Of a DNA stretch of 64,000 nt, positions 34,432-53,973 are shown in pieces. Every line of letters begins with the position of its first letter. Position 1 is the first letter of the stretch. Source of the stretch: a virus. The DNA lies in IMG/VR virus record IMGVR_UViG_3300046167_000815, positions 1-64,000 of that record; one strand, written 5' to 3'. The position numbers and the translations under genes are program-made. The notes under the pieces are model-generated. The model was not told the DNA's origin. It worked only from the letters and a program-made list of their open reading frames with translations, and made no database searches.

Positions 34432-37400
34432 ATGGAAGAAGAAGAGTACTTAGATGATTCTAAAAAAGTAGAAGTTAAAGGTGTAGAAACTGCTCCTATT
34501 GCAGAAGAGGTTATAAAACCTGTTGAAGATATTGTAGTAGATATAGAAGAGCCTAAAAAAACTAAACCTAAAGCTACTAGTACTAAAGATACTACCGAAC
34601 CTATTGTTGATACTACTTCTAAAATAGAAGAAGAGGTACAAACAAAAGATATTTTTGACGGCCTAAGAAAAAAACCTTTTCCTGCAGCTATGGAGTTTTC
34701 TACTCCTAAAACACAACAAGAAGCTTTTTCTAGACAATTAGGATCAAGAGCTGCCGCACCTACTACTTCTACTATAAAAGGATTTACAGGAATAATAGAT
34801 TATGATGCTTTACAAGAAGTATATGCTCCAGTAGATTTAGCTGTTGGAATTCCTGACCCACAAGAACGTGAAAGTTTTATAGCCAGTAATGGCAGTAAAA
34901 TGGTAAAACTTTTTAATGAAAATGATTTTGGAGTAAAGTTTGAATCTGATCTAGCAGACTTAGCAAAATATAAAGAAAAACAATATCCATTAGCAGTTAA
35001 AAAGTTTATAGACGACCTAGATGCAAATCAAGGATGGATGGCAGAGTCAATGCTAACTCTTACTAAATTTATAGGTAAAATAGCAGTAGGTGTACCTGCT
35101 ACTATGTTAGCTTCAGTATATGGAGCAGGGTCTGCATTAGTTAATTGGGATTCCCGTAAGTTTTACGACAATGCTGTAATGGACGCTGCAGAACTTTTAG
35201 ACCAGTCTGTAGATAAATATACTGCTATATATGGAGGATCAGATGTTTTTGATTTTGAAATAAACCCAGATACAGGAATATACGAATTTAAACAAAAAGA
35301 TTTTTTAGCCAGAATGGCCTCTGATCCTTTAAAATCTATTAATGCCGACGTAGTTCCTGCTGCAGCTTTTATTGCAGATATGGTTATTTCTGAAAGTGCT
35401 TTTGGAGCATTAACTGCCGCTACAGGAGGTTTAGCTACAGGAGGACTTGCAGTAAATACCGCTAGGTTAGCAAATAAAGCAAAACAATTAAGTGGTTGGG
35501 CTACAAGAACAGGACAATATTCTAAAGCTAATCGCATACTAAGAGGGATAGACAAAGTAGACGATGTTAAAGCTGCTGCAGATATAGCAGAAAAAACACA
35601 AAGATATAGATCTGCTTTTGGAACAATAGGATCTATGTATCGTTCTTCTGCTTACGAATCTGCTTTAATAGCTAGAGACACAGATAAACATACATTAGAA
35701 CTATTAATTTCTCAGCATAAAGAACGTGAAGGTACAGAACCTACAAAATTAGATTTAATACGTTATAAAGAGTTAGCTAAAAGTGCAGGAGAACAAGCTT
35801 ACGGTCTTAATGCAATATTAGTAGGTGGTAGTAACTTAATACAATTTCCTAGACTACTAACAAAAAACTATAAAGTAGCGTCTTCTAGAAAAGGAGTATT
35901 TGATTCTTTAAAGCTAGGAGGAACTCAGTTTAAAAACGGAAAGCATATAGCAAATGTAGATGCTAAAAAATATTTAAAAACTTTAGGTTATACTAAAGCC
36001 GCTATTAAAGGAGGTATAACAGAAGGATTTGAAGAACTTTCTCAAGGTGCACTAGAAGAAGGATTAGTAGATTATTTTGCATCTAAGTACAGCGAAGACT
36101 CTAATAGAAATGCTTTAGAATTAATAAATGCAGTAACAAATAAAGCCTCCACATACTTAAATACTGTTGAAGGACGAGATAGTGTTACTATTGGAGCAAT
36201 GATGGGTATGCTAGGAATTAGAGTTCCTTTTGTTAAAAAAAGTGATTCTAAGTTGGGGTTCTCTCTTACTACAAAAGGTTTTGGTGGAGCTCGGCAAGAA
36301 ATCCAAGAAACTAGAAAAAAAATAAAGGAAGCTAGATCTAATGCAGAACTTTTAAATTCTGATTTAAATTTTAATCCTGTATTAAGCACTACTTTTGAAA
36401 ATTCTATGCGGCATATTCAGAGCCAAAAAAATATGGATGCTGCAGCTAATAATGGAGATACTTATAGATATAAAAATTCAGAATTTGATTCTTTATTTAG
36501 TTTAGTACACACAAGAACTAAAAACGGATTAGAAGATACTATAGCACAAGAATTAGACGGTGCTTTAGAAATGCCTATTGAAAAGTTTAACGAAACTTAT
36601 GCTACTAAAGGAGTAGAAAATTATACAGAAGAAACTAGGGCCCAAGCTGTAGAGTCTGCTAAAAATACTGCCGCTAAAATGGTAGAGTCTATAAAAAGTG
36701 TAGAAGCTTTATTAGCGAATAAAAAACCAGATCTTTTAACAAGAGCTGCAGAAGAAGCCTGGTTAGCAATAACTGGCAAAGAAGCAAAAACTACTTTAGA
36801 TCTTTCACAAGTAGAACAAGGTATTAAAGACCAAATGGTTTATTTACATGCTGCAGTAGAAAATACTTCAAAACGTGAAGCAGAGCTTTTAGAACAAATA
36901 AGAGAAAAAACTGGTCACAGTTTTCCTTTGTCTACATTAGATAGATTATTAACACAAGTTTCTGGAATAAGAATAGAGGACGGCAAACTTACATTTAGTA
37001 ATAGAGCACAACAAGTAAAAGAAGAAGTACTTAAAGAATATGAAAATCTTTTAGATTCTTATAAAAAGGAAGACCCTGTTAATTATAACATGAATGTAGC
37101 AGAAGTGTCTGATTTACTAGATGATGTTTTAAAATTAAAAATTAGAAGAGGGGAAGCTTCTAGAATGTACCGTGAGCTTTTTACAGAAAAAGGATCTAAA
37201 GCATTTGCTGATTTTGCAGTAGCTTTATCTATTGCTGCAGATAAAAACAGAAATAAGATAGCAAAAGAAGATATTATTGAAAAGGAAGTGCAAGAAAGTA
37301 GAAATGCAACTCTTTCTAGACAACAAAAAAATGAACTTTCTGTTTTTGGAAATACTGATATTGTAGATGCTAAAATAAATTCTGATACAGTAAACGGTAT

Positions 37401-39462
37401 AAAAGAAATACAAGCAAGAGAAGAAGACCCTACTAATTCTGACGAAGATTTAGTAGACGGTATGCTAAAAACTTTAGATACTTATCCTGGTTTACTTACA
37501 TTAATAAAAGAAAGATTAGAAGATAAAGGAGTCCCTACTGAGGGCATTACTGTTGCTCAAGAAATTCAACTAAGAGATTCTGACGGAACTATGTTAAGTA
37601 ATTTCTTTAAGGAAATAGCTATTTTAAAGAAAGAAGTAAAAGCCATGGAAGAAGCCATGGGAGATACTTTTAAAGCAGACTCGGCAGATCAATTAGGACA
37701 AGTACAATCTAAAGAAGGAGTTCCTGTTTTAGATAAAGATGTAATAGAAGATGATGTTTCAGAAGCTCTTTCTAAGGGAAAACAAGTTACTGATAAGATA
37801 ACTATTATAAACACTTTTGATAAAAAAATAGAAGCAGGAAAAACTGTAAAAGGAGAGGACGGAAAAGCTGTTAAACATTCTGTAAATAAACAGTACTATC
37901 CTTTAGATGCTAATAAAGTTAATGATCCTGATTTTTTAAATAATCTAGAACTTACTTCAGAAAAACGTAATTTTACTTTTAGAGTACAAAAAGACAACCC
38001 TTATAACGATACTGCCAGTGTAGAAAACATGGCTATTGAAGTTGTTTATATAGATCCAGTAACACAAGAAGAAACATTTATTTCTAGATTACCTGCTTAT
38101 AAAAAAGGAATGCCTAAACAATTGTTAGAGCTTAGAAAAGAGGTAGTAAAAAGATCAGAAGTTACAGAAGATGTTAGTGAAGACAACGTCAAAAGAATTC
38201 AAGAAATAAAAGCTAGAAAAAAAGAAATTAAAGAAGAGCTTAAAAAAGAACCTAAAACTCCTGCTTTAGAACCTATTATTTCTACAAATGAACTTGCTCT
38301 AGAACAAGAAAAAACTGCTCTTGAAGAAGAACAAAAACTTGATAGTCCTAATGAAAAAATTATAGCAGGGCATAAAACTCGTATTAAAGAATTAGAAAAA
38401 ATAATTAAAGAGTCTAAACCAACACCACAAACTAGTAAGGTTGAAGCTAATAAAAATATTTTAAATTCAAAGTACTTACAAGAATTTGGAATTAAATGGG
38501 AAGATAAACCTTTTCCTGGTGATATTATAGAGTACAATGGTTCTTATTATAAAGTTGATTATTCAGAAAATCAGGAGCTAACAGGGAATGAAATATTAAG
38601 TCTTGCAGAAGATGGTTTAATTGAATATACAGGAGTAGCTGAAGTTTACAAAAATGAAACCTTTGACTTATTACCTTGGAATATTAAAAAAAATAAAGAT
38701 GACGTTAATGAAAATCATCCAACGGGTCCTTTGTTTTCTGTTCCTTTAGAAATACTTGTTGATAGAGCTAAGTTTACAAAAATAAAAAAAGGAGAAGAAA
38801 GCACTTCTATAGATACTTTTTATGAAGAAGCTACTATAGTAGAACCAACACAACCAACTAGTGAAGTTGAATTACCTATAGGTACAGAAGTAAGAGTTGA
38901 AAATGAAGAAGGTACATGGTTTATTTCAAAATATGTAGATGTAACCTATTTAGGAACAGAAAAAATTGATAAAGCAGCGATAGTAACTAAAAACTTAGGA
39001 GATAATACTGAGATGTTAGAGGTCGTGTTAAAAGATTATAAAGTAACTCCTGCTACTCAACCAATTGCTGAAGTAACAGAAGAGACAAATCAGATAAGAT
39101 TAGAGTTTGAAGAATTTACTGATAATGCTACAGTTAAAGTTGTAAATAACAAAAAAGAATTAGCAGAAGAGCTAAACTCCCTTACAAAAGAACTTAAAGA
39201 ATTAATGGGAGATATATCTCCTCAAATAAATTTAAAAGAAGAAAGTGTTTTTGAATACATTTCTGATCTAACACTTATAGAAGACACTAAATTAAAAAAT
39301 AGCAAAGAAACAGAATTAAAAAAGAATTTTGGAGAGGATAATGTTGAAAGAGCAAATGCAATTAATGCAAACTTTGATACTATTATAGAAGAAATTAATA
39401 AAAGCGGAATTAATATCTTCTTTGATCCTAAAACAAATAAGCATCAAAATGGTTGTGATTAA
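34432..39462 (+). CDS. Giant virion cargo protein with hydrophobic segments
   Basis: A 1676-residue protein with an acidic N-terminus (about 1-70). It has two hydrophobic glycine/alanine-rich regions near 206-238 and 304-346 and a third near 583-600, then long charged coiled coils to the end. Membrane-active segments within a virion cargo protein suggest it helps form the channel through the host envelope, as internal core proteins of T7 do; this is an analogy, not a homology claim. Lysine/glutamate repeats at about 1230-1330 look like extended helix. No catalytic motif is recognised. Confidence 0.6.
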   Translation: MEEEEYLDDSKKVEVKGVETAPIAEEVIKPVEDIVVDIEEPKKTKPKATSTKDTTEPIVDTTSKIEEEVQTKDIFDGLRKKPFPAAMEFSTPKTQQEAFSRQLGSRAAAPTTSTIKGFTGIIDYDALQEVYAPVDLAVGIPDPQERESFIASNGSKMVKLFNENDFGVKFESDLADLAKYKEKQYPLAVKKFIDDLDANQGWMAESMLTLTKFIGKIAVGVPATMLASVYGAGSALVNWDSRKFYDNAVMDAAELLDQSVDKYTAIYGGSDVFDFEINPDTGIYEFKQKDFLARMASDPLKSINADVVPAAAFIADMVISESAFGALTAATGGLATGGLAVNTARLANKAKQLSGWATRTGQYSKANRILRGIDKVDDVKAAADIAEKTQRYRSAFGTIGSMYRSSAYESALIARDTDKHTLELLISQHKEREGTEPTKLDLIRYKELAKSAGEQAYGLNAILVGGSNLIQFPRLLTKNYKVASSRKGVFDSLKLGGTQFKNGKHIANVDAKKYLKTLGYTKAAIKGGITEGFEELSQGALEEGLVDYFASKYSEDSNRNALELINAVTNKASTYLNTVEGRDSVTIGAMMGMLGIRVPFVKKSDSKLGFSLTTKGFGGARQEIQETRKKIKEARSNAELLNSDLNFNPVLSTTFENSMRHIQSQKNMDAAANNGDTYRYKNSEFDSLFSLVHTRTKNGLEDTIAQELDGALEMPIEKFNETYATKGVENYTEETRAQAVESAKNTAAKMVESIKSVEALLANKKPDLLTRAAEEAWLAITGKEAKTTLDLSQVEQGIKDQMVYLHAAVENTSKREAELLEQIREKTGHSFPLSTLDRLLTQVSGIRIEDGKLTFSNRAQQVKEEVLKEYENLLDSYKKEDPVNYNMNVAEVSDLLDDVLKLKIRRGEASRMYRELFTEKGSKAFADFAVALSIAADKNRNKIAKEDIIEKEVQESRNATLSRQQKNELSVFGNTDIVDAKINSDTVNGIKEIQAREEDPTNSDEDLVDGMLKTLDTYPGLLTLIKERLEDKGVPTEGITVAQEIQLRDSDGTMLSNFFKEIAILKKEVKAMEEAMGDTFKADSADQLGQVQSKEGVPVLDKDVIEDDVSEALSKGKQVTDKITIINTFDKKIEAGKTVKGEDGKAVKHSVNKQYYPLDANKVNDPDFLNNLELTSEKRNFTFRVQKDNPYNDTASVENMAIEVVYIDPVTQEETFISRLPAYKKGMPKQLLELRKEVVKRSEVTEDVSEDNVKRIQEIKARKKEIKEELKKEPKTPALEPIISTNELALEQEKTALEEEQKLDSPNEKIIAGHKTRIKELEKIIKESKPTPQTSKVEANKNILNSKYLQEFGIKWEDKPFPGDIIEYNGSYYKVDYSENQELTGNEILSLAEDGLIEYTGVAEVYKNETFDLLPWNIKKNKDDVNENHPTGPLFSVPLEILVDRAKFTKIKKGEESTSIDTFYEEATIVEPTQPTSEVELPIGTEVRVENEEGTWFISKYVDVTYLGTEKIDKAAIVTKNLGDNTEMLEVVLKDYKVTPATQPIAEVTEETNQIRLEFEEFTDNATVKVVNNKKELAEELNSLTKELKELMGDISPQINLKEESVFEYISDLTLIEDTKLKNSKETELKKNFGEDNVERANAINANFDTIIEEINKSGINIFFDPKTNKHQNGCD

Positions 39463-39493: not shown

Positions 39494-42400
39494 ATGGCTT
39501 GTAGATATTTTGTTGGTGGTTACTCACTAACCGAAGCACAATTTAAAAAAGTGCTTAATGATGGTCTTCTAGATCAATTACTAGTTAAACAAGGTATTGA
39601 AATACCAGGGTTTAATATTAAAGAGGAGTTTATAGAAAGTACTCTTGAAAGTGCTAAACAAGGTCCTGTAGAATTAAGAGTAGTATCTAAAATAAACAGT
39701 AAGAAGCGAATAAACAATCAATTAGAAAAAGTAAGCTACACAGAAGGAGACGTTATAGGCGGGACTAATAGAAGAAGTGCTGCACGTAAATTAACTACTG
39801 TTATAAAAGAAGCTAACGATCAAATTAAAAAAGAAAATAAAAGGTTAAATAAAAAAAGAAAACCAATAGACCTCATACTGGTAACTTCTGTTGGAGGTAA
39901 ACTACAATACGGAGAAAATATTTCTAAAAAAGTAGTACAAGAAATAGAAGACAGTCCTTATGTAAATCTAGAAGATGGTTTTATATATATGCTGGTTCCT
40001 AGTTCTTACGGTTTATATCCAATAAGATTAGAGTCCCGTTTCTTAGGAGAAACAAATGTAGGTAGCCAAGTAAAAGAAAACGTAAAAAAATTATTTACTG
40101 AAACAGACAACAAAGTTTTTGACAATATTGCAAAAAATATAAGTAGGTTTTTATATAAAACAACAATAAAAAAGACTCCTGAAGGAGTTAATATAACTAC
40201 TACTAAAGCAGATAAAGAACAAGTATCAAAGACTTTTGAAACTGCCGAAGAACTAATTACTTTTATTTTAGGAGACCGAGCAGGTAAAAAACTAAACAAA
40301 GATAAAGACGGCAACCTTAGTACTAATAAAGGTTTATTGGCTCATGTAAACAGTTTAAAAATAAACAATAATGTTAAAGACCCTAATTCTTTATCTAATG
40401 ATTTTTATGCTAACAATGAATTTATAACTACAGATGTCTATACTGAAGGAGGTAACTTTTTTAATAGCAGTAGTTTTGTTGTAGAAGCATTTAATCCTAC
40501 AACCCAAACAACAAAAGTATTAGGAGAGATATTAAGCAGCTCTATACCTGTTAAAGAAGAAAGTGAGGCTAGCTCTAAAATAGTTAAACCTATTGTAAAA
40601 GAAGAAACTAAAGAAGACGAACTTCCAATTAATAATAAAACAATAGAAGAAGTACAAGAACTTCAATCTATTTATATACCTATAGAAAACTCTAATTTAC
40701 AATATAGAGTTTACGTAAGAGCTAAAGAAAATACTTTAGAAATGTATGAAGTAGAAAAAGGAAGTTTAGTAGCTGTTCCTAATTCTAATGCAAAAAAATG
40801 GAAAGTATCTTCTAAGGCAAATTCTAAAGAAACTAGTATTGCTCGTAAAGAAGCAAAGCCTAAGTTTGACGAACTTAAAAAACAGTTTGGTACAAAAGAT
40901 ACTACTACTCCAGAAGGAGGTATATACCAAGATCCTAAAACTGGAGAAGATGTAGGAACAGGTTTGTTTGATAATCCTATTGTTGAAGAAACAGAATCTA
41001 CTCCTGAGACAGAAACAAACATATCAGGAATATTTGATTACGGAGAAGAAGGAGATGTAGGGGAAGATTTAGATATAAAACCACGTACTCGTACTGTAGA
41101 TAATAAAGAAAACGCTGTACAATGGGATAAAGAAAAAGAACTTAAATGGTTAATAGATAAACTAGGCAGAAAAGTTCTAGATGGAAAAGTATCTTTATTT
41201 AATTCTGTAGAAGACTTAGAATCTTATTTGCCTAAAGAAACTTACGAAATGCTATTAGAAGCACGTAAAAACGGAAAGTTTCTTAACGGTTTGTTTACTA
41301 AAGCAGGAATGTACATATCAAACAATGCTTTTGATGGAACAGGTTTTCACGAAGCATTTCACGTAGTATTTAATCTAGGGCTTAACTTAGAACAAAGAAT
41401 TAGTTTATTAAATGAAGCAGTAGAAAAATACTCTGACGAAATCTCACCAGAAGCTACTTTAATAAAAATAGAAGAAGTACTTGCAGATAAGTTTATGGAG
41501 TACGTACAAGCAGAAGGAGAAGTAAAAGGTCTTGTAGGAAAAATAGGCAAATGGTTTAAAGCTATGTTTAGAGGTTTTAAATTATTTTTTAATAAAAACT
41601 CTGTAGTTTCTATATCAGATTTGTTTAGTGATATTCAATTAGGTGTTTATAAAAACAAAATTACTTTTGAAAATACGGACTTAACTAAAATACATCCTGA
41701 AAATATTAAGCTGCGTGAAACAGAAAATACTAATAAAAGTAATAACGATCCTATACCAGAGTTAGATCCTAGATTAAAAAAAGATGCTTTTCAATATATG
41801 GAAAACAGACTTTTTCAAGAACTAGATAAAATAAGAGAAGAAAACGCTGATTTTAAAAATTTATCAGATTCTGAATTAATTAATGAAATATCTAAACAAG
41901 GAGGTATAAAACGTATTTACGGGGTGCTTCTTTATAGAATGTCCCTGGACGCTAAGGCTAGTGCAAACGCAGGTAAAGATATTTCTAATTTATTAGAAAT
42001 ATGGAATGCGTTTACAAATAACAATAAAGCAATAGAAAAAACAATAATTGCTGGAAAAAGAATGCCTATTTTTAAACTAGGCCTTACTCCTTTAGCTAAA
42101 GAGTTTAATCGTTCTTTACGTAATAGAGGTATTAATATTAATTTAGATTCAATAGAAGACTTAAAATATACTTTTACAGAAGAAGAAGAAAATTCTTTTG
42201 CTAAAGATGTAGAGAATAGCACTGCAGAAGAGCGTTGGCAACAAGCTTATATAGAAATAAATCCACAAGAAACTTTATCTCAACTTACTAGAAGAAGACT
42301 AAGTACTATTCCAAAAATGATTATAGTAGACGGAGAAGAAGTGAGAGCTACTAATAGATTAGGAATTCCTATTAACTATTCTGAAAAAGAAGTATTTGCT

Positions 42401-45400
42401 TATTTAGCCCATAATATTACTGATTCTTATAGTCCTTCTAAAATGGTAAATAGACTAAAAGAATTGTCTGACAAAAAACCTTTTATAGAAGAGATTTTAA
42501 ATATGATACAAAAGTATCCTAATTTTAAAAATTCTTTGTACACTACTTTGGCTTCTAAAACTTTTCAAAAGTTTTTAATGGTTTTAGAAGTAGATGGAAA
42601 TTACAGAACTTTTTATTCTAACAGAAAATCTATAGATAATCTTATTACAGAAACTATGATTAACGGTTTTGTAGTAGATGAGAATCCTCTTTTTGATAAA
42701 CACGATAGTGAAAGTGAACTAAAAGGACAAATAGATTTTGAAACTCCTATTAAGAAAAAAGTATCAGAACAAATTGCTAGATTAAATAGTCTAACAGAGC
42801 GTAGTAAGGTTACTACTACTAAAGAAGAAATAACTGATTTTATTAGTGACTTTGCAAAATTTTTAAAAGACAATCATTTAAGTGTAAGTGAAGATCAGTT
42901 ATTAGAAATATGGAATCCTGATACAGAAAATACTAAATCTAAATGGAATAATATTGTAAAATTACTTAGTAGTACTGGTAAAATATTTAAAGAACTTGAG
43001 CAAGGTAGAAATCCTTTTTTACAAATGCGAGTGTCGGACGACAGTGTATTTAAAAATGTATTAAAAGAATTTGTATTTAGAGCAAAATCAGGAATGGAAA
43101 AAGACCTAAGTATTGCTTTTGTAAATGGAAATAAAAAAGCAGTATACGCAGTTCAATATTCTAATTACTTAAATAAACTAATTTCTAAATTTAAAAATCC
43201 TAAAGATTTTAAAGAATACAAAGCAGAAATAGCAAACGATCCTTTGCTTAGTAGTATGCCAATGATTACAGATCTTTTAACCGAAGAAGGAGAGGCTTCT
43301 CAGTTAATGGATAATTTAGAAACAGTTATTTTTGATTCTTTAGCAAGAAGCGGAAAAAATACAAATGTAGACTATTCTGATTTGTCAGATATTGAAATAG
43401 AATCTATGGCAATGGCGGCCTTTTTTAAACAAGGTAACAAAAGCAACTATGGTTATTACAAACTTCCTATTCCTGCAGATAACTCTGTATTGCCTCTAAT
43501 TCAATATAAAAAATATGACTTTAAAGAAGTCGTAGATAGATTTGTTCAAGTAGCCAATGCAGAAAGAAAAAGAATAAATTTCTTTAAAAATTTACCAGAA
43601 GACTCTTCTCTTCTTTTAATAGAAAACTTTAAGAAGAACGCAGGTAAATATCATATATTAAACTTTTTAAATGGCAAAGTATCTGAAAATACTAGTGTTG
43701 ATGATATTAGAATTATAATAGAAGACCATTTACTAACAGAGTTTTTAGAGTTACAAAAAGAAAAATATAAAGATGCGGGCATAATAAAAGAATACGAAAA
43801 GGGCCCTAATGGTAAAATTACTTTTACTGATGGAGTAATTAGTAAAAGCCAAGAAAAAAATTCTTCAGAGTTCTTTAAAAGTTATTTGTTTAATTCATAT
43901 TTAATGAATACTCAAATGACTACTATTTTTGCAGGGGACCCTGCTTTTTATACAGGCACAGGAGATTATCAAAAAAGATACAAACAAATAGTATCTCCTG
44001 GAACTTTTACTAATTCTGAAATTATATATGATAAGTATTCTGGTTTAGTATTCAATGATGAAGTAGCTCCTACAGAATCTTACGTTGTAGATAATATTAT
44101 AGATTTAGTAAGAGCTTCTGATCTGCCTGCAGAAAACAAAAAAGAATTAATAGCTAGATGGGAATCAACTAGAAGTACTACTTCTGATAAAGGCCATAAT
44201 AATCTTACTGATGCGGCTACTTTTATATCTTTAGATAGAGCTAAAAATATTTTAGTATCTCTTGATAGATATACTCCAGCACATAAAAAAGCATTTGAAA
44301 GAATAAAAAAAGGAATTGAAAAACCAGAAGACTCTGCTTTGTTTAGTGTCTCAAAACCTTTTATGTTTAGTAAGATGAATATAGAAGGAGTAGAAGTTCC
44401 TATTCAAATTAAAAACTCAGAAGTACTTTTAACTAAAGCACTTGCATATAAAAAAGATGCAGACGGAAACTTTATGCGTCCTAAACTAGTAGCTGCTTAC
44501 GATTTATTAAACAATCCTAAACCAGATGGTCCGCAAATAGATTTTATTGCTTTTGAATCTGCTGTAAAAGTAGGAGCTATAGGAAGTAAACTAGACGAAG
44601 AAGGAAACGTTACATATAATGAATTAGTAGAAGATGATGAAGGCAAACTAATATTAAACGGACCTCCTGCTATTGTTACTTTAGACCATGCAGACTGGAG
44701 ACTTCAACAAGAAGTACCGCCTAAATACGAAGATGCTTCTGGTAACTTTGGTAGCCAATTACGTAATCTAATTATAAGTGATATGTCAATGGACGGCATA
44801 TACAAAATAAATAAAAAAGATTATACAGGAAGAGAAGTAGCAAGAATGTATCAAGATCTTATAGTAGAAAATCTACAAGAGTCTTACGAAGATGTAGAAG
44901 AAATGTTCCTGGACGAAGACGGGGAAATAGACTATAAAAAAATTACTACTCATTTAAGAGCAGAAATTACAAGAAGAAACTTAGGAGAAGAATATTTTAA
45001 AGCAATAGAGCTTGTAGATAATGTTCGTAAAAATAAAAAAACACCTACTTTACCTCTTTGGCATCCTTTAGTTTCTTATAAAGTAGAAAGCCTTCTAAAC
45101 TCTTTCTTTAAAAATAATGTTACCAAACAAAAAATTAAAGGAGGAGCAATGGTCAATGCTACTTCTTACGGAGTATCTGAAGAACTAGAGTTCTACATAG
45201 ATAAAAACGGTAATTATTTAATGGAAGCTTTGCTGCCTTGGTGGACTAAAAGATTCTTTCCTAAAAATAAAGATGGCGAGATAGATTTAAAAACACTGCC
45301 AAAAGAATTAACAGCGCTTTTAGGTTACCGTATTCCTACTGAAGATAAATACTCTATGTTTAATATTAAAGTAGTAGGGTTTACGGATTCAGCAGCAGGA

Positions 45401-48400
45401 GGTACTATTATTCTTCCTCAAGAAGCTACTACTCAAGCAGGACTCGATTTTGATATTGATAAACTTTCTATGATTATTCCTGAGTACAGAATAACAAAAG
45501 AAGGTAAAATAGAATACAAAAAATATTTAAATGAAAATTCTTCTGCTGAAGAAATTGTGGACGCTATTTTTGACAGTAATAGTTCTTACGAATCTTTTGT
45601 TAATAAGTATGTTCCAAAAAGCAGTCAAAAAAGAATACTAAAGTTAAAAGAAGAAGCTGATCAAGATATTTTTAATTCTGTTTTATCAAGAAACAACTGG
45701 AAAAAAGATGTAGGTTTTACAGAGATTGTAACAGAAATAAAAGATTTAACAGAAGAAAGTAAAAAAGAAACAGACCCTGTAAAAAAAGCCGCTCTTAAAA
45801 AACAAATTAATTCTTTACGTAATAAAGTATACGAAGAAAAAGATTTATTTGATGCAGGTGTTAATACTGCGCATGAAAGATACAAGACTCTTAAAAAAGA
45901 TATAGCTGGTTTTGTAGAAACGATTTCTAAAGACGAATACGTAGACTTTAATACTAAAGCAACACGTAATAATCAATTATTACAAATAATGATTGGTATT
46001 ATGGAAAATAAAGAAACGGCTCTTTCTATTATTGACTCTGGTAACTTTGATAAGTTAATAGAATTAGGAACTAGTACTAGAATACTACAACTACCAAAAG
46101 ATTCTAATCTTAAAAAAGAAGGTATAGATATTTTAAAAGATTTTAAATCTGGAAAAATAGATGTTTTACAATATAGAGAACTACTTAAAGATTTTTCTAA
46201 AAAATTAGATGATAAGGATTTTAATATAAATTATCCTTCTACACAATTGACTTTGTTTAGACGTAATATGACAGGTAAAAAGCTAATTGGTATTTTTGCA
46301 AATCATAATTCTAATCATGCTAAAGCACAATACACAAATCTTGCTTTGAATTCAAGTGTTAAATTTGATGGAATAGAATACAACAGTTTAAATAATGTAA
46401 AAAATTCTGAAGGAGAAAGAATATCTAAATCATTAGCAATTAAATTAGCTGCTGTTGTAGACAACGCTCAAGAACCTGTATCTGCTTATTTAAATATGAA
46501 CACTTACACGGCCAATGTAATCGCATACTTATCTAGATTAGGAGTTAAAGAAGATACTATTTTTGCTTTTGTTAATCAACCTTCAATTGTAGAACTTACA
46601 AAAGAGCACTTTAACGAAAAAGGATCTGCTGCAACAGAAAAAAATAGAGTAGACAAACACATTGCACAGCTAAAAGGAGATTTAGGCATCAATAATATTA
46701 GTTTAGATTCTATAGAAATGGAAGAAGGGAATCTAAATTTAAAAGAATTGCAAGATGCTTTAGATAATAATAACTCTAAAGAAACATTAATTACTCAGTA
46801 TAAAGCGTTAGTAGCTTTTAAAGATCATTACAATATAGCAGAAGAATTAAGCCAAATAACGCAAGCTTCTAAAGTAGATACTCAACCTGTAGGTCCTTCT
46901 AATGGAGAAAACTATGTAATGATTAATAAACAACAAAGAGTATTAAATAGAAGTAACTCTATGATTACAGGTAAAGAAGAATTATTTTTTACAGAATCAG
47001 AGCAATTAATTAATCCTGCTTTTAATAAATATGGATGGTTAAAACCTTTAGGTATTTTAAATAAAGTATTTCCTTCTATAGGAAAAATTTCTACAGAAAC
47101 AGGTAGTATACAATACTCTATGCTAGGAAAAATAAAAAATTTCTTTTCTGATTTAAAAACAGATTTTAATTTAACAGCTTCGGAAGCACGCCAGGTAGAC
47201 AGTCTGTTTATGTCTTACATAGGGTCTAAACTTCCTTTCTTTAATTACAAAGATGCTACAAGAGTTTTAAATGAAGTTCCTGATACATTGCGTAAGTACA
47301 AAGAAGAAAACCCAGATTCTATTTACATGCCGCTTTTAGAAGCTTTGTATACTAAAGATGCTACAAGAACTGTTCCTGTACGTAGAATAGAATACTACAA
47401 TACAGGTAAGAAGAGTTTAGATCATGAAGAAGCAAGAGCAGCTTGGAAACAAATGCTAACTGCAGAAAATGCTAAAGACAGAAAACTAGCGTTAGATTTA
47501 GTTAAATATACTTTTTTCTCTAATGGATATAGTTTTAGTTCTTATTCATTCTTTAATATGATTCCTGTAGAGTTTTGGAAAGACTCTTTTGCAAAAGAAG
47601 ATATTAATAAAGGAGTAGGACTTTTAGACGAAAACAATAATAGTTTTAATGATATAGCTGAATTAGTTTTTGAAGATTTAAAAAACGAACCTGCGGTAGG
47701 AGTTGACGGTTACATAACACAATCAGGCGCTGTATATAATTTTATTAAACAGTTTATACAAAATACTGCAGAAAAATCTATGGTAGTACCTTCTTTAAAT
47801 TTAAAAGAAGATACTCCAAGAGGATTTACTCCTAAAAAAGGAGTTTTAAAATTAGCACCTGACGAAGTATTTGTTTTTGGAACTACACAAGAAGGAGCTC
47901 ATAATATAGATGCTGCAGGGTTTGCTTTTAGCGGAAACGCTACAACAAATAAATCTTTGTATAAAAAAGGAGACACAGGTAAATGGACTCAATACGGTAT
48001 AACGGGTCAAATTACACTTGGTACAGAAGGACAAGGATTTGGTATAAGAATGCAAAAAGCTACTTTTAAAGATGGGTCTTTAGAAAAAATAGAAGGTCCT
48101 AAACAATTAGAAGAAGCTGAAAGTAGAAAGCTTATAACATCTATGAAATCTGATTTAAGAAAATTAATTAAAGCAGCTAACGAAAATAATAATAAAACTT
48201 TTATTGTAGGAAATTTAGATAATTCTACTAATGATACAGGAAGAACAAGTTTTAAAATTATTAAACAAGCTTTAGAAGAAGTTAACAAAGAAGCTATGTT
48301 TCCTGAAAATGTAATTTTTCCTGAAAAATACGATCCAAGGATAAATAACAATAGAAAAATTGTAAAAGTTGATAATACTCAAAGTTTAATTATTAGAAAA

Positions 48401-48964
48401 GCAGCTCATCAAAACTATAAAAATAATGATGGAGTTTTTCCTTCTTTCTTTAAAGTAACTAAAAATAAAGTTACTAGTGTTTACGAAATAAATAAAGAAA
48501 CTTTAGATAAGGATTACTTAGAATACAATAAGATTCCTACATTAGGAACTAACAATTTTATTGTAGAATTTAATTACAATAATCCTATAAATGAGTCTAT
48601 AGTTCCTAAAATTATTAAGAAGAGCAGCGGTTTAACTTTGACCAACAAAAAAGAAATAGAGGAAAAGTATCAAGAAGCTCCTCCAATAGATCCTACAAAC
48701 TCTTCTTTGTTTACTATTTCTACAAAAGAAGTACTGGAAGATTTAAAAGACGACGATTACCCAGACATAGATGTTTTACAATTTTCTGCGCCTACAATAA
48801 AATCAAACATAGAAACACCAAATATTGGGCCCAAGGAAGCTCCTTACTCAGAATATAGTACTTTAGCAAAAAGTAAAAAGCAAGTTCCTATGCCAGAAAG
48901 TATTTGGGAAAAAGCAAGCGCTTTAGAAAAAGCAAGTATTATGATACAACTTAAAGAATGTTAA
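39494..48964 (+). CDS. Virion RNA polymerase polyprotein (zincin + RNAP + macro-like domain)
   Basis: A 3156-residue giant protein. Residues about 560-700 hold a zinc-metallopeptidase-like domain with H-E-A-F-H at 619-623, followed by a basic amphipathic stretch (G-K-W-F-K-A-M-F-R-G-F-K). The central part is the crAss-like single-chain RNA polymerase: the catalytic aspartates lie in D-F-D-I-D at 1985-1989, and a likely beta-type double-psi barrel lies upstream near 1740-1760 (V-P-P-K-Y and G-S-Q-L-R-N). The C-terminal region about 2790-2950 contains V-F-V-F-G-T-T-Q-E-G-A-H, resembling the macro-like phage domain that usually reads V-F-V-F-G-S-N. Such polymerases are packaged and injected to transcribe early genes. 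No frame breaks occur in 9.5 kb. Cleavage by the internal peptidase is possible but unproven. Confidence 0.85.
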   Translation: MACRYFVGGYSLTEAQFKKVLNDGLLDQLLVKQGIEIPGFNIKEEFIESTLESAKQGPVELRVVSKINSKKRINNQLEKVSYTEGDVIGGTNRRSAARKLTTVIKEANDQIKKENKRLNKKRKPIDLILVTSVGGKLQYGENISKKVVQEIEDSPYVNLEDGFIYMLVPSSYGLYPIRLESRFLGETNVGSQVKENVKKLFTETDNKVFDNIAKNISRFLYKTTIKKTPEGVNITTTKADKEQVSKTFETAEELITFILGDRAGKKLNKDKDGNLSTNKGLLAHVNSLKINNNVKDPNSLSNDFYANNEFITTDVYTEGGNFFNSSSFVVEAFNPTTQTTKVLGEILSSSIPVKEESEASSKIVKPIVKEETKEDELPINNKTIEEVQELQSIYIPIENSNLQYRVYVRAKENTLEMYEVEKGSLVAVPNSNAKKWKVSSKANSKETSIARKEAKPKFDELKKQFGTKDTTTPEGGIYQDPKTGEDVGTGLFDNPIVEETESTPETETNISGIFDYGEEGDVGEDLDIKPRTRTVDNKENAVQWDKEKELKWLIDKLGRKVLDGKVSLFNSVEDLESYLPKETYEMLLEARKNGKFLNGLFTKAGMYISNNAFDGTGFHEAFHVVFNLGLNLEQRISLLNEAVEKYSDEISPEATLIKIEEVLADKFMEYVQAEGEVKGLVGKIGKWFKAMFRGFKLFFNKNSVVSISDLFSDIQLGVYKNKITFENTDLTKIHPENIKLRETENTNKSNNDPIPELDPRLKKDAFQYMENRLFQELDKIREENADFKNLSDSELINEISKQGGIKRIYGVLLYRMSLDAKASANAGKDISNLLEIWNAFTNNNKAIEKTIIAGKRMPIFKLGLTPLAKEFNRSLRNRGININLDSIEDLKYTFTEEEENSFAKDVENSTAEERWQQAYIEINPQETLSQLTRRRLSTIPKMIIVDGEEVRATNRLGIPINYSEKEVFAYLAHNITDSYSPSKMVNRLKELSDKKPFIEEILNMIQKYPNFKNSLYTTLASKTFQKFLMVLEVDGNYRTFYSNRKSIDNLITETMINGFVVDENPLFDKHDSESELKGQIDFETPIKKKVSEQIARLNSLTERSKVTTTKEEITDFISDFAKFLKDNHLSVSEDQLLEIWNPDTENTKSKWNNIVKLLSSTGKIFKELEQGRNPFLQMRVSDDSVFKNVLKEFVFRAKSGMEKDLSIAFVNGNKKAVYAVQYSNYLNKLISKFKNPKDFKEYKAEIANDPLLSSMPMITDLLTEEGEASQLMDNLETVIFDSLARSGKNTNVDYSDLSDIEIESMAMAAFFKQGNKSNYGYYKLPIPADNSVLPLIQYKKYDFKEVVDRFVQVANAERKRINFFKNLPEDSSLLLIENFKKNAGKYHILNFLNGKVSENTSVDDIRIIIEDHLLTEFLELQKEKYKDAGIIKEYEKGPNGKITFTDGVISKSQEKNSSEFFKSYLFNSYLMNTQMTTIFAGDPAFYTGTGDYQKRYKQIVSPGTFTNSEIIYDKYSGLVFNDEVAPTESYVVDNIIDLVRASDLPAENKKELIARWESTRSTTSDKGHNNLTDAATFISLDRAKNILVSLDRYTPAHKKAFERIKKGIEKPEDSALFSVSKPFMFSKMNIEGVEVPIQIKNSEVLLTKALAYKKDADGNFMRPKLVAAYDLLNNPKPDGPQIDFIAFESAVKVGAIGSKLDEEGNVTYNELVEDDEGKLILNGPPAIVTLDHADWRLQQEVPPKYEDASGNFGSQLRNLIISDMSMDGIYKINKKDYTGREVARMYQDLIVENLQESYEDVEEMFLDEDGEIDYKKITTHLRAEITRRNLGEEYFKAIELVDNVRKNKKTPTLPLWHPLVSYKVESLLNSFFKNNVTKQKIKGGAMVNATSYGVSEELEFYIDKNGNYLMEALLPWWTKRFFPKNKDGEIDLKTLPKELTALLGYRIPTEDKYSMFNIKVVGFTDSAAGGTIILPQEATTQAGLDFDIDKLSMIIPEYRITKEGKIEYKKYLNENSSAEEIVDAIFDSNSSYESFVNKYVPKSSQKRILKLKEEADQDIFNSVLSRNNWKKDVGFTEIVTEIKDLTEESKKETDPVKKAALKKQINSLRNKVYEEKDLFDAGVNTAHERYKTLKKDIAGFVETISKDEYVDFNTKATRNNQLLQIMIGIMENKETALSIIDSGNFDKLIELGTSTRILQLPKDSNLKKEGIDILKDFKSGKIDVLQYRELLKDFSKKLDDKDFNINYPSTQLTLFRRNMTGKKLIGIFANHNSNHAKAQYTNLALNSSVKFDGIEYNSLNNVKNSEGERISKSLAIKLAAVVDNAQEPVSAYLNMNTYTANVIAYLSRLGVKEDTIFAFVNQPSIVELTKEHFNEKGSAATEKNRVDKHIAQLKGDLGINNISLDSIEMEEGNLNLKELQDALDNNNSKETLITQYKALVAFKDHYNIAEELSQITQASKVDTQPVGPSNGENYVMINKQQRVLNRSNSMITGKEELFFTESEQLINPAFNKYGWLKPLGILNKVFPSIGKISTETGSIQYSMLGKIKNFFSDLKTDFNLTASEARQVDSLFMSYIGSKLPFFNYKDATRVLNEVPDTLRKYKEENPDSIYMPLLEALYTKDATRTVPVRRIEYYNTGKKSLDHEEARAAWKQMLTAENAKDRKLALDLVKYTFFSNGYSFSSYSFFNMIPVEFWKDSFAKEDINKGVGLLDENNNSFNDIAELVFEDLKNEPAVGVDGYITQSGAVYNFIKQFIQNTAEKSMVVPSLNLKEDTPRGFTPKKGVLKLAPDEVFVFGTTQEGAHNIDAAGFAFSGNATTNKSLYKKGDTGKWTQYGITGQITLGTEGQGFGIRMQKATFKDGSLEKIEGPKQLEEAESRKLITSMKSDLRKLIKAANENNNKTFIVGNLDNSTNDTGRTSFKIIKQALEEVNKEAMFPENVIFPEKYDPRINNNRKIVKVDNTQSLIIRKAAHQNYKNNDGVFPSFFKVTKNKVTSVYEINKETLDKDYLEYNKIPTLGTNNFIVEFNYNNPINESIVPKIIKKSSGLTLTNKKEIEEKYQEAPPIDPTNSSLFTISTKEVLEDLKDDDYPDIDVLQFSAPTIKSNIETPNIGPKEAPYSEYSTLAKSKKQVPMPESIWEKASALEKASIMIQLKEC

Positions 48965-48965
48965 T

Positions 48966-51900
48966 ATGAATTGTATAAATATAAATCACCCAGAATATAA
49001 GTCTTTATTAAACAGTACAAAAGAACATCCGCATGTTTTAAACTACAAAATAAGTTTATGGATGGACAAAAACGGAACAGATAGTTTTCCTACTGCTAAT
49101 GAAGTTTTGTCTATTCCTTTTGGCCAAGGGGTATTTTATAATATTAATCCTATAAAACAATTAGGTATTAAATACAATATGAACCAAGCAGGTTTTATGC
49201 CTGCAAATGTAGACTTAGCACAGGTTCAAAGAGACGCTAGAAAATTAAATTTAACGGTCCATAGAGCTGCTTCTCGTATGTGGTTCTTTAAAGACTCTAG
49301 TAAAAGATTCATCAATCCCTTCAAATACAGACAGTTAGAAACAAGTACTCCTCTCAATCCCAACCAAGATCTAACTGACAGACTTTTAAAGTGGGCTAAT
49401 ACTCACGGTATTGCCGTAACTACTTTAGAAGAAATGATGAATAGGGCAACAGACTCAGACTCTTTAAAAGGGTCTGTAGCTGTTGCTGACTTACTTAATA
49501 GAATAATAGCTATAGATCCACAAAAAGAAGGATACGATACATTAGCGGAAGAAGTAGCACACTTTGCTACTAGCATATTAAAAGACGATGTTTCTGTAAA
49601 GAAAGCTATGGAGAAAATAGTAGATACAGAAATGTATAAAGAGGTAAAAGAGGTTTACGCTGAACTATATAATAATGAAGAAGACTTTAGAAAAGAAGCC
49701 GTAGATAAACTACTTACTCAAGTTATTCTAGATAAGTTTCAAGAAACAAAAGAAACAAAAGGAGTGCTGCCTTTTATTAAAGGAATCTTTAGCAAGTTTA
49801 AAAAATGGGTTTCTAAATTTAGAAAGTCAGATGCTGCAGAAGAAATTAAAAATGATTTATATCCTCTTGCACAATCTATTCTTAACAATGAATATTTAGG
49901 AACTGCTAATACTGTAGACGCAACAAGTAACACTGTATTCTACCAAAAAGGATTAGTGTATACTCCAGAATCTGAAACAGAATTACTAGAATCTTTACCT
50001 GAATCAATAGAAAAAGTTAAAGCTAAATTTGTTATAGCGGCTACTAATAAACTTAATGAACGATTAGAACAACTTAGAAGAAATAGCGCTAAGGCAAAAA
50101 AAGTAAAAAGTTTACAAAAAGAAATAGATACTTTAAAAGAACAAATAGAAAAAAATGAACTTACTGTAAGTGCTTTAGGAGTAATAGAATTAGCCAGAAA
50201 AGAGCTTGTTCCTATAAATAAAATGCTAGATACTTTTATTGAAAAAAATGCTACTAATGGTAAGGACTTAGAAATGATAGAAAAATTTTCTGAAATGTAT
50301 CAGAATTTATTTACAGATTTTCAAGAAGGAATGTCTGTATTAAATTTTTCTAAAGAAGAAAATCAAAATCTTCTTAATATGCTACAAGAAGTTCGTTCCG
50401 AAATATTACAAATGGATTCTAGAAATAGAGCTCTTATAAAAGAAAACGCACTTACTGTATTAGAAGAAGGCAATGTAGGCCCTGACGGTCAAAAAATAGA
50501 TCCTGATTTTAATGCAGAAACCGCTTTTAATTTTACTAAAGAAGATGCTTCTGCCTGGAGACTACAAGTAGGTAATTACAAACTTTCTAATTCTCCTATT
50601 ATAAGAGCAGTCCATAAAATATTATTTGATGCTACTCAAGCTGTAAAAAGATTTGCAATTTCAAAAGGTAACGTTTTACTAAGGGCACAACTAGAAATGG
50701 AAAATGCTGGAGTAAAAGTAGAAGATTTAATAGAAAAAGATGCAAATGGAAAGTATACTCAGTACCTTATACGTAAAGAAGACTGGGCAGGATACTATGC
50801 TGAAAGATCTAAAATGCAAGAAAAACTTGCAAAAGAATTAGGTTACGATAGCTATGCAGATCTTGATACTAGCCAGCTTTCTGAAAAAGATTTAAAAACT
50901 TATAAAAGAGTTACTAAAGCATTTTTTAGAGAAAATTCTCTTTTAAGTTATGATTCTGAAGGAACAATTATAGGCAGAAAACCTAAAACTCTTAATCCTA
51001 AGTTTGCAGAATTAATGAAAAATCCTGCAGTTAAAAATTATTATGATTTACTAATAGATACTAAAACAGAAGCTCTTTCTAAATTGCCTACTCAATATAG
51101 AACTTCTGCTTCTATATATTTATTGCCAGGAATAAGAGCTCAGTTTTTAGAAAAACTTACTGATAACAACCAGTCTTTTTTAACTAATATGAGAGAGACT
51201 GTAAAAGAAGCTTTCTTTATTGATGAAGATGATACTCAGTTTGGGGAAATATCTGCACTAAATAATAGAATGGTCCCTATATATTTTAACCAACGTTTTG
51301 ATAATCCTGCAAATTTATCTAGAGATTTAACTAGAAGTTATACTGTGTATTCTGAAATGGCAGAAAACTTTAAATCTATGAACACCATAGCAGGTGATGT
51401 ATATACTATTTCTAGTGCTTTAAGTAGAAAAAAATACCAAAAAGGAAAACAACAAGTAGAAGGTATCGTTTCTAGAGATTTTAAAATACTGCAAAACATG
51501 TTAGATCAAAATGTTTACGGTATAGTAAAGAAAGATGTTAGTGTAACAGTAAAAGATACTCCTCTTACTAGAAAATTACATCTTGCTAATAAGTCTTTTT
51601 CTTTTACTAAGTTGGCGCAAAAAGTTTCTAAGTATATTTCTTTAAATAACTTGGCCTTAAATCCTTTTACTTCTACTGCAGGTTATTTAAAAGGGTCTAT
51701 TGATTCTCTTGTAGAAGATCAAATAGGATTATATACTACATTAGAATCTAAAAACTGGGCAAGAGGAGAGTATGCTAAAAATATACTACATGTCTTACAA
51801 GAAGTTCCTAAAAAAAGACAGACAAATAAAATGCATCTTTTATTACAACGTAACGGAGTTGTAGAGCTTAGTAAAATGCTTAGAAATACTAATAAGAATA

Positions 51901-53060
51901 AACTACTTTCTGATGTTACTAGTAGAGACCTTATGTTTTTAAATTATCGTACTGCTGACTACGCTATTAAAGGTAGAGTAGCATTGTCTATTTACGATAA
52001 CATAAGATTAGTAGACGGTAATTTTATAAACAAAAAGAACTTTTTAGAAAAGTCTGAAAAAGAAGGCCTATCTAAAAAAGAAGCTAATAAAAAATGGAAA
52101 GAGTCTAGAGACAAAAGTTTGTACAATGCTTATGAAGTAGTAGACGGCATTCTGCAAGTAAAACCAGAGTTTAAGCAATACGTTACTGATGGGGTAGAAA
52201 ATGCGGCTGTGGGACAAGTTAATCATGTAGCTAACACAGTAGACGGTACGCTATCAGAAAGTGATAAAGGAGCACTAGCTCGTACAGTATATGGAGATTT
52301 TGTACTTATGCACCGTGGATGGTTTATAAATATGATAGATTCTAGATTTACTAAGAAAAAAGTAAACTTTATTACTGGAGAAGAAGAGATGGGTATATAC
52401 CCTGCTGCAGGAGATTTCATATATCAAGATATAATTAAAGGTAAGAATCTTACTCCTTGGGATATTTATTCTGCTTATAAAAATATAGCTAGTCCTGCTA
52501 AAAAACGAGGAGTTAAAAAAGCAACTTTAGATCTTATTTATTTACAAGTTGTAGCTCTCATAAGTGCTATGGTAAATGTAGCAGCAGACGACGATGATGA
52601 AAATATGATGCTACAATTAGCAGCATACCAAATGAATAGAGTGCTCTTAGAACAAGCTGCAGGACAACCTTTGTTAAACACAGGGGAATTACTTCAAATT
52701 ATAGATGAACCTGTTGTGGGTGTAAGAACTGTAAAAGATTTAGTAGATATTAAAGAAATATTTAATTTTAAACCTTACCAAAGCGGAATGTATAAAGGAT
52801 GGACTCACGCAGGTAAGTGGGCCATTAAAAAAATACCTGGATACAAAAATATTTACGAAAGTCAGTTTCCTGATCTAAAAAATAATTTCTTAAAAAATCA
52901 AATTATAGATTCTTATACTTATGATTTATTAAAAGAAAAACAAGACGATAGTGAATTTACTTTATTAGAAAGACTAGCTCTTATATTTAAAGACCAACAG
53001 CCAGATAACGAAAGTACTGTGGTCCAATATATAGAAGCACTAGAAGAAGACAACTACTAA
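48966..53060 (+). CDS. Giant virion cargo protein with degenerate zincin domain
   Basis: A 1364-residue protein starting two bases after the polymerase stop. The N-terminus (M-N-C-I-N-I-N-H-P-E-Y-K-S-L-L) resembles a module found at the start of crAss-like giant proteins. Residues about 185-290 parallel the zincin domain of the upstream ORF, but the motif reads E-E-V-A-H (195-199), lacking the first zinc-binding histidine, so peptidase activity is doubtful. A basic K-F-K-K-W-V-S-K-F segment follows, as in the intact copy. Coiled coils lie at about 360-420. A hydrophobic segment near 1190-1205 precedes an acidic A-D-D-D-D-E-N. It is probably ejected with the polymerase. Confidence 0.65.
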   Translation: MNCININHPEYKSLLNSTKEHPHVLNYKISLWMDKNGTDSFPTANEVLSIPFGQGVFYNINPIKQLGIKYNMNQAGFMPANVDLAQVQRDARKLNLTVHRAASRMWFFKDSSKRFINPFKYRQLETSTPLNPNQDLTDRLLKWANTHGIAVTTLEEMMNRATDSDSLKGSVAVADLLNRIIAIDPQKEGYDTLAEEVAHFATSILKDDVSVKKAMEKIVDTEMYKEVKEVYAELYNNEEDFRKEAVDKLLTQVILDKFQETKETKGVLPFIKGIFSKFKKWVSKFRKSDAAEEIKNDLYPLAQSILNNEYLGTANTVDATSNTVFYQKGLVYTPESETELLESLPESIEKVKAKFVIAATNKLNERLEQLRRNSAKAKKVKSLQKEIDTLKEQIEKNELTVSALGVIELARKELVPINKMLDTFIEKNATNGKDLEMIEKFSEMYQNLFTDFQEGMSVLNFSKEENQNLLNMLQEVRSEILQMDSRNRALIKENALTVLEEGNVGPDGQKIDPDFNAETAFNFTKEDASAWRLQVGNYKLSNSPIIRAVHKILFDATQAVKRFAISKGNVLLRAQLEMENAGVKVEDLIEKDANGKYTQYLIRKEDWAGYYAERSKMQEKLAKELGYDSYADLDTSQLSEKDLKTYKRVTKAFFRENSLLSYDSEGTIIGRKPKTLNPKFAELMKNPAVKNYYDLLIDTKTEALSKLPTQYRTSASIYLLPGIRAQFLEKLTDNNQSFLTNMRETVKEAFFIDEDDTQFGEISALNNRMVPIYFNQRFDNPANLSRDLTRSYTVYSEMAENFKSMNTIAGDVYTISSALSRKKYQKGKQQVEGIVSRDFKILQNMLDQNVYGIVKKDVSVTVKDTPLTRKLHLANKSFSFTKLAQKVSKYISLNNLALNPFTSTAGYLKGSIDSLVEDQIGLYTTLESKNWARGEYAKNILHVLQEVPKKRQTNKMHLLLQRNGVVELSKMLRNTNKNKLLSDVTSRDLMFLNYRTADYAIKGRVALSIYDNIRLVDGNFINKKNFLEKSEKEGLSKKEANKKWKESRDKSLYNAYEVVDGILQVKPEFKQYVTDGVENAAVGQVNHVANTVDGTLSESDKGALARTVYGDFVLMHRGWFINMIDSRFTKKKVNFITGEEEMGIYPAAGDFIYQDIIKGKNLTPWDIYSAYKNIASPAKKRGVKKATLDLIYLQVVALISAMVNVAADDDDENMMLQLAAYQMNRVLLEQAAGQPLLNTGELLQIIDEPVVGVRTVKDLVDIKEIFNFKPYQSGMYKGWTHAGKWAIKKIPGYKNIYESQFPDLKNNFLKNQIIDSYTYDLLKEKQDDSEFTLLERLALIFKDQQPDNESTVVQYIEALEEDNY

Positions 53061-53104: not shown

Positions 53105-53973
53105 TTAAAAAATATATCTAATTTTATTCCACGGAATCATTTCATCGTGTAAGTTTTTAAAATATTTTATATACTTAGATTTTAATCCTTTAGCATATCT
53201 AATATTTTTACCGCCATATTGAGAAGTTTTTACTTCTTGTTTTTTAGGCTGCCACAATAAATCTTCTCCTGATACGTTATTAGCTACATTATACTTATGT
53301 TTATTTTCATTATGAGTTAAAAAATAACCTCTGACAATACATCTTTTTTATACTCTTCTTTAATATGCATATCACATAAAGCAAATAACTTAGCATAATG
53401 TTTTAGCCAATCGTCAAACACAACTACTGGACTAAAATTTAAGTGCACTTCATACCCAGCTTCAATAAATTTATTTACTGATTTAATCCTGTCTATAATA
53501 TCTGGAGTATTAGGCTCTAATTTTTCTTTGATTATTTGCGGCATAAGACTAAATCTAATTCTTACTTTCTTTTTAGGATTAAATTCTAAGAACTTAGTAG
53601 GAATTATTTTAGTAGCAAACGTTGCTTTAGCAATAGGATGCTCTACAAAAAACTCAAATATTTTTTGCCATTCGTGGTATTTAGCATGTAAAGCAAAATC
53701 TTCGTTACAAGCAATGTCATAAGTAACATACTCAGGATCCGTTTGATTAGGCTTTTTTACATCAGCATAAAAATATGCATGATTGTTAATCGCTGTTAGT
53801 ATATCGCCATAGTTTTTTGCAACAGTAAGGCCTTCTGGCAAATGCCTTTTCATATAACAGTAGGAGCATTTAAGTAAACAGCCGAACCCAAAAGAAGGCG
53901 AGATATAATCGCTACTTCTTTCTGACAATCGGATTTCCATAGCTTTTCTACTGACTTTCTTTATTTCAGTCAT
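53105..53973 (-). CDS. Spore-photoproduct-lyase-like radical SAM protein, one frame change
   Basis: A 289-residue radical SAM protein. The cluster motif C-x3-C-x2-C lies at C32, C36 and C39 within F-G-F-G-C-L-L-K-C-S-Y-C-Y, the pattern of the SPL group that repairs thymine dimers of the spore-photoproduct type. The frame ends at 53317, but the other frame continues as L-T-H-N-E-N-K-H-K-Y and ends I-P-W-N-K-I-R-Y-I-F at 53105. One missing T in the T6 run (coding strand) near 53328-53333 explains the break. The C-terminal end matches what I expect for this family. It probably acts in repair of UV-damaged phage DNA, but a different radical reaction is possible. Confidence 0.75.

Follow-up and report, generated by a model that had tools for sequence, protein, structure and literature searches.

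The closest described relatives of the locus reported here are crAss-like phages, in which the virion RNA polymerase (RNAP) is a single chain with a DFDID core, as in phi14:2 (g066; structure 6vr4) and crAss001 (gp50; 2412 aa, without HExxH). In phi14:2, genes g067-g066-g065 have the order and direction gp47-RNAP-gp49, the protein ends read ..NTIC / MAC..ECK / MSCK, and the annotation places the RNAP in the virion. In crAssphage (BK010471), the same three modules are distributed over two proteins, KP06_gp45 (“RNAP associated protein fused to zincin protease”) and KP06_gp44 (“RNAP catalytic subunit fused to unknown RNAP subunit”), which meet at Cys-bearing ends (..SFSCM / MSCG..). Annotation had thus already recorded, in these two entries, both a gp47-terminal zincin and an RNAP with a fused subunit. 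According to PMC10172136, packaging of crassvirus cargo was shown by mass spectrometry, cargo of crAss001 is proposed to cross the tail partly unfolded, and disulfides occur elsewhere in the PhicrAss001 virion, including the tail (tail hubs, rings, and the gp57 dimer), so that interchain bonds do exist in a crassvirus virion. These bonds are static structural ones outside the cargo, and the same paper, in whose main text the word “cysteine” does not occur, appears to describe no coupling of cargo proteins. The cargo proteins gp47, RNAP, and gp49 were not resolved by cryo-EM.

A second giant injected polymerase is gp50 of the N4-like phages (Schitoviridae), which is free of Cys and carries a zincin-like domain in its chain (PMC12633501, PMC5512222); fusion of zincin domains to N4-like RNAPs was reported by Iyer et al. 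(PMC5512222). The N4 authors tie the scarcity of Cys to passage through the tail and the oxidizing periplasm (PMC3715699, PMC3915230, PMC2784036), and the near-absence of inner Cys in crassvirus cargo resembles the situation in N4. However, N4 gp50 is a T7-type enzyme unrelated to the crAss-like RNAP, and the ejection proteins gp51 and gp52 have no terminal Cys; thus, N4 offers no coupling comparable to the one proposed below.

The DNA analyzed here (“the window”) comprises 64,000 nucleotides, positions 1 to 64,000 of the IMG/VR record IMGVR_UViG_3300046167_000815, the whole of which has 79,211 bases. It encodes TerL, a portal, a major head protein, a cargo block, and an adjacent gp49; TerL, the portal, the major head protein, and the crAss_CARG1 domain (Pfam) of a cargo protein 1 identify it as a crassvirus. 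Cargo protein 1 (gp45-like, 1563 aa; 26239..30930, plus strand, as are all features below unless stated otherwise) has glucosaminidase and crAss_CARG1 domains (Pfam PF01832, PF25725). Its one Cys is its last residue (..KRRHC), for which the next cargo protein (31437..34415; 992 aa, gp46-like by position, zero Cys, outside the proposed train) offers no partner; the gp45 of Dulem41 has zero Cys. Then follow the N-terminal part of a gp47 homolog (34432..39462; 1676 aa), which BLASTP matches to gp47 of crAss001 (2e-20), Dulem41 (6e-20), and cr85 (5e-15), the chain under study (39494..48964), and a gp49 homolog (48966..53060; 1364 aa), assigned by phrog_37651 (virion structural protein, E=2e-33) and by synteny with crAss001 gp49 and phi14:2 g065. 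A minus-strand gene block contains a spore-photoproduct-lyase-like protein (Pfam SPL; 53317-53973) and a DUF2201_N/phage metallopeptidase-like protein (60082-60795).

The first-pass annotation had described 39494..48964 as a packaged RNAP with a metallopeptidase-like domain in front and a macro-like domain behind, in one chain of 3156 residues marked by three motifs. The single open frame was confirmed, as were the positions of D-F-D-I-D (residues 1985-1989; 45446-45460), H-E-A-F-H (619-623), and V-F-V-F-G-T-T-Q-E-G-A-H (from 2792); all three exceed chance, given the alignment of DFDID with the catalytic DFDID of 6vr4, the presence of the HEAFH domain in relatives, and the match of residues 2785-2956 to phrog_2072. 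The polymerase assignment holds: residues 1456-2479 (43859..46930) match phi14:2 structure 6vr4 in three stretches (phmmer, E=1.2e-21), with DFDID on DFDID. Stretches for both putative double-psi beta-barrels of the chain align with 6vr4 (GSQ.. at 1753 and DFDID at 1985). The middle of the chain also matches crAss-like RNAPs in 108 phage records. No T7-type (N4-like) polymerase was recognized, the DFDID-type 6vr4 being the only solved structure matched at E up to 1. Pfam gave nothing above the cutoff for the chain, and a direct search with the whole chain found zero close relatives; profile searches with the DFDID region succeeded. Packaging in the virion and injection of the RNAP are documented for relatives and are presumed for the window phage.

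The window chain exceeds phi14:2 g066 by 976 residues; ahead of the polymerase it has the gp47 C terminus and its zincin-like domain, and after the polymerase a domain resembling A1S_2505. As to the front, a zincin-like HExxH...E domain does precede the polymerase, but it is the C terminus of the neighboring gp47 and not an addition to the RNAP. Residues 524-733 (41063..41692) match the extreme C terminus of gp47 of crAss001 and relatives (tblastn, E about 1e-9 to 1e-11); a longer segment, residues 175-722, aligns with cr85 gp47 1714-2252 (E=2e-18). Because the upstream protein corresponds to the N-terminal half of gp47 and residues 175-722 to its C-terminal part, the gene boundary cuts gp47 at an earlier point here, leaving the rest of that protein on the RNAP. 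The gp47/RNAP break thus lies upstream of the zincin-like domain, which therefore rides on the polymerase chain. Two break positions exist, one before the zincin (the window, L018, L019, L022, and L095) and one after it (crAss001 and cr85), and Cys is found at both. crAssphage likewise breaks after the zincin and has its RNAP fused to gp49, whereas in the window gp49 is separate.

H619, E620, and H623 (HEAFH, 41348-41362) and the candidate third ligand E661 (41474-41476) are invariant in 25 sequences (the window and 24 relatives with the domain), so that HExxH is joined by a distal Glu. The motif helix and flanking helices were modeled by AF2 at pLDDT 86-96, and some relatives of the region give weak Pfam matches of the metallopeptidase type (Tox-MPTase4, Peptidase_M41, and ATLF). 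Foldseek and VIA found zero zincin matches for the AF2 model of the region, perhaps because nearly a third of that model has a pLDDT under 50. The first-pass annotation had also proposed that the peptidase might cut the chain into mature parts. Such processing, which would free the RNAP core from both ends and would be compatible with the disulfide model developed below, is suggested by the conservation of HExxH...E in many relatives, by the proximity of the domain to the gp47/RNAP boundary, and by the proposal of Iyer et al. (PMC5512222) of the same for polyvalent proteins, with the domain present in N4-like RNAPs. However, we regard it as distinctly unlikely. Among 74 fused chains with the domain (L017-L256), 47 have lost the second His, mostly to HExxE, versus 27 that keep HExxH; this change suggests that catalysis was lost or altered while the domain was retained, and a canonical peptidase motif, judged by these sequences, is not required in fused chains generally. 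Moreover, in a close pair of loci described below, the zincin region of the fused chain L254 is replaced in the split L235, and the Foldseek search, as noted, gave no zincin match.

As to the back end, the extra domain behind the polymerase is real, but it resembles the phage A1S_2505/phrog_2072 family more closely than it does any macro family. Residues 2785-2956 (47846..48361), with a long insertion, match phrog_2072 at E=2e-4 and are thus similar but divergent; NCBIfam A1S_2505 (NF049995) gave E=0.011 and 16 bits, below its curated cutoff of 45. No Pfam macro match was obtained, and the AF2 model of this domain (pLDDT 46) was too poor for a fold search. The same domain occurs elsewhere in the RNAP chains of L021, L072, L094, and L173 and towards the front of the chain in cr116_1, and the RNAP chain of cr126_1 is annotated with DUF1768. 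These look like exchangeable accessory domains. The protein itself is a further form of the known crAss-like virion RNAP; what would be new is the proposed end-to-end coupling through Cys residues.

The RNAP chain of the window has only two Cys, residues 3 (MAC..; 39500..39502) and 3156, the last residue (48959..48961); the first-pass annotation does not mention them. The upstream gp47 part has one in 1676 residues, at 1675 (..QNGCD; 39454-39456), and gp49 has one in 1364, at residue 3 (MNC..; 48972-48974). The few Cys of these proteins thus stand at the gp47 C terminus, at both RNAP ends, and at the gp49 N terminus. Altogether, the five cargo proteins of the window (8,751 aa) contain five Cys, all within 3 residues of an end, for which the chance probability is about 5e-13; 19 other genes of the window have 0.58% Cys. 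The terminal Cys of the gp47 part and Cys3 of the RNAP, as well as Cys3156 and Cys3 of gp49, are proposed partners, the gp47 part being the first car of the train and gp49 the last.

Profile searches yielded 240 IMG/VR loci, of which 144 were nonredundant with a recognizable RNAP. Where RNAP and gp49 are split, Cys is present both in the last 10 residues of RNAP and in the first 10 of gp49 in 111 of 112 loci, the sole exception being L089, with the RNAP Cys at -13. In 162 other open reading frames of the same contigs, the baseline is 13% for N-terminal and 10% for C-terminal Cys. The free C terminus of gp49 has Cys in none of 98 cases, and the gp46-position neighbors of fused chains (26 relatives) have none in 10,981 residues. 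Nine loci encode RNAP fused to gp49, with zero Cys in 46,238 residues, although this contrast represents just 3 to 4 independent events and is not significant alone; four of these chains (5,005-5,642 aa) are complete at the 5' end, the other five are truncated by the edge of the contig, and the length of most would suffice to accommodate gp47.

Some RNAP chains (L037-L039, L067, L093, and similar ones) have many internal Cys (up to 24) in addition to the terminal Cys, whereas others have almost none. Internal Cys content may track the oxygen level of the habitat.

On the gp47 side, fusion was recognized by HMM and the unfused state by an RNAP too short to contain gp47, so that architecture was assigned without using Cys; 14 loci were excluded from the count, either because their architecture could be called only with the help of Cys or because a frameshift or intron interrupts them. 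An N-terminal RNAP Cys is found in 0 of 65 chains fused to gp47 versus 30 of 31 unfused ones, the exception being L147, whose neighborhood looks broken. The outer ends of the fused chains should not be over-read, because Cys is in any case absent from the start of gp47 and from the end of gp49; in the inner junction zone of 75 fused chains, there are 2 Cys in 120,000 residues. On the RNAP tree, at least 10 changes of architecture fall on supported branches, and the presence of Cys followed the architecture in all 10 independent pairs (sign test, p=0.002). The C-terminal Cys of gp47 draws on less material than the gp49 side, namely, 18 adjacent pairs plus annotated genomes; in L069, the gp47 Cys is at -24. 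Among the few internal Cys of fused RNAP chains, 37 cluster in one 200-residue stretch before DFDID and possibly represent one conserved position near the active site.

A close pair of loci (63-67% identity) illustrates the same change. L254 encodes a fused chain of 4141 aa with one Cys near the C terminus, while L235 is split into 2015 and 2149 aa, with ..ILIKKCKG and MGVCPN.. at the new ends; the break replaces about 250 residues of L254, zincin region included.

These contrasts bear on two explanations that involve no coupling between different subunits. (i) Cys might be selected against in injected proteins and merely tolerated, unpaired, at floppy ends. The zero Cys of N4 gp50-52 and the reported avoidance of Cys (PMC3715699, PMC3915230, PMC2784036) are in line with it, but tolerance cannot yield 111 of 112 junction ends against 0 of 98 free gp49 ends, does not explain the loss of Cys on fusion, and is at odds with gut phages that have internal Cys and still retain the terminal ones; we consider it very improbable. 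(ii) Equally little credence can be given to homotypic or intrachain pairing, i.e., gp47-gp47 or gp49-gp49 dimers or an RNAP ring closed by its own end Cys. Each end does have Cys, and an unfused RNAP often has one per end, but RNAP fused to gp47 keeps the C-terminal Cys only, which makes a ring impossible, and in RNAP+gp49 fusions, both partner Cys vanish together.

An Intestiviridae set, with a separate gp47 and an RNAP-gp49 fusion, was examined once the pattern had already been formulated (jaberico, cr107, crAssphage, crAss002, cr3, cr110, cr271, and ctbg_1). All eight have a C-terminal Cys in gp47, all eight have an N-terminal Cys in RNAP, and in all eight the last 10 residues of the gp49 end are free of Cys; crAss002 and cr110 fit only after the annotated RNAP start was moved to an inner ATG giving MSC.., which in crAss002 is identical to the start in cr107. 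The annotated RNAP starts thus appear to be too early by 32 codons in crAss002 and by 14 in cr110 (L263, L265), and the Cys rule points to the likely right ones. In the Suoliviridae phage cr10_1, gp47 and RNAP are fused and the chain has Cys at -11; the overlapping start of gp49, MKIICPN.. (L260:16745 onward), is missing from the public annotation. The pattern therefore spans Steigviridae, Intestiviridae, and one member of Suoliviridae. Each of the four possible combinations of the two breaks is represented and conforms to the Cys rule, with an even number of end Cys (4, 2, or 0) in every architecture because joining of genes removes both partners at once.

In crAss001, DAC17, cr106, and cr116, the gene for gp47 occupies the opposite strand, away from the RNAP start, yet its product also has a C-terminal Cys. 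Since the gp47 Cys is kept in spite of the opposite strand (crAss001, DAC17), it is a protein-level feature. A DNA or RNA signal at the gene junctions (translational coupling or recombination) that is merely read as Cys codons might be suspected, as many junctions have only 3-20 nt. However, such a signal would not account for the opposite-strand gp47 genes, Cys is kept at junctions with 500-nt insertions, and TGT:TGC is 229:45 at 34% GC, which is ordinary codon use; we regard the probability of this explanation as practically negligible.

Cys at the ends that would meet head to tail, none at the ends that would be free, and joint loss on fusion are as expected if a disulfide replaces the peptide bond. 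We therefore favor, as quite probable, the reading that the pattern described above reflects a split polyprotein whose pieces are held together by terminal disulfides and enter the host as one string. Together, gp47, RNAP, and gp49 would make up a single functional chain, about 5,000-6,000 residues long, which the capsid would hold and the narrow tail would let pass on injection; some crAss-like phages encode it as one polypeptide and most as two or three. At each gene break, the upstream C terminus and the downstream N terminus each carry a Cys in proteins that are otherwise nearly free of it. In the window, this holds for the gp47/RNAP break upstream of the zincin-like domain. We infer that disulfides form between these Cys in the virion and staple gp47(C)-(N)RNAP(C)-(N)gp49 head to tail, that the stapled pieces thread the tail as one string, and that the reducing cytoplasm then frees the subunits. 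For crAss001, this predicts two linked tryptic peptide pairs, one of gp47 ..CNS and gp50 CITTNSTIEELAAK, the other of gp49 CAIIPQVR and the peptide that holds the C-terminal Cys of gp50. In crAssphage (L262) and jaberico (L258), the gene block that faces the RNAP gene includes genes for thioredoxin-like proteins, which might be relevant to how injected cargo is reduced.

Points against the disulfide model include the anaerobic life of the gut hosts, which raises the question of where oxidation would take place, and mispairing, which the many internal Cys (up to 24) in some gut phages could allow. An alternative that joins the same three proteins without a disulfide is that the terminal Cys are shared metal ligands (Zn or Fe-S) or make a thiol contact that holds the RNAP complex together after injection. 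Metal or thiol contacts would account for the head-to-tail placement and the loss on fusion, would suit anaerobic hosts, and would function in a reducing cytoplasm. With only two Cys per junction and variable adjoining residues without a conserved extra ligand, we judge this alternative to be rather unlikely. Native chemical ligation was rejected, as the N-terminal Cys is at position 3-9 and never the first residue.

To our knowledge, a redox-stapled split polyprotein has been described for no virus. Our literature search found no report of the terminal Cys, although the papers on phi14:2 (Drobysheva 2021) or on the 2018 reannotation of crAssphage might contain an earlier mention.

For the most abundant gut viruses, it has yet to be explained how several huge proteins exit the capsid in sequence through a channel narrower than 50 angstroms; in crAss001, gp47, gp49, and gp50 total about 694 kDa. 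The Cys rule, if true, would mean that they leave as one string, the order of which is fixed by the chemistry of the ends. It appears more likely than not that the transcription apparatus of crassviruses enters the host as a single covalent string, in which a terminal disulfide replaces each lost peptide bond and the reducing power of the host frees the subunits. The rule would also identify the subunits that form a set, including those encoded on opposite strands, and would provide a sequence mark for the true starts and ends of badly annotated cargo genes. More broadly, the coupling of terminal Cys may serve as a model for stapling and releasing injected protein cargo.
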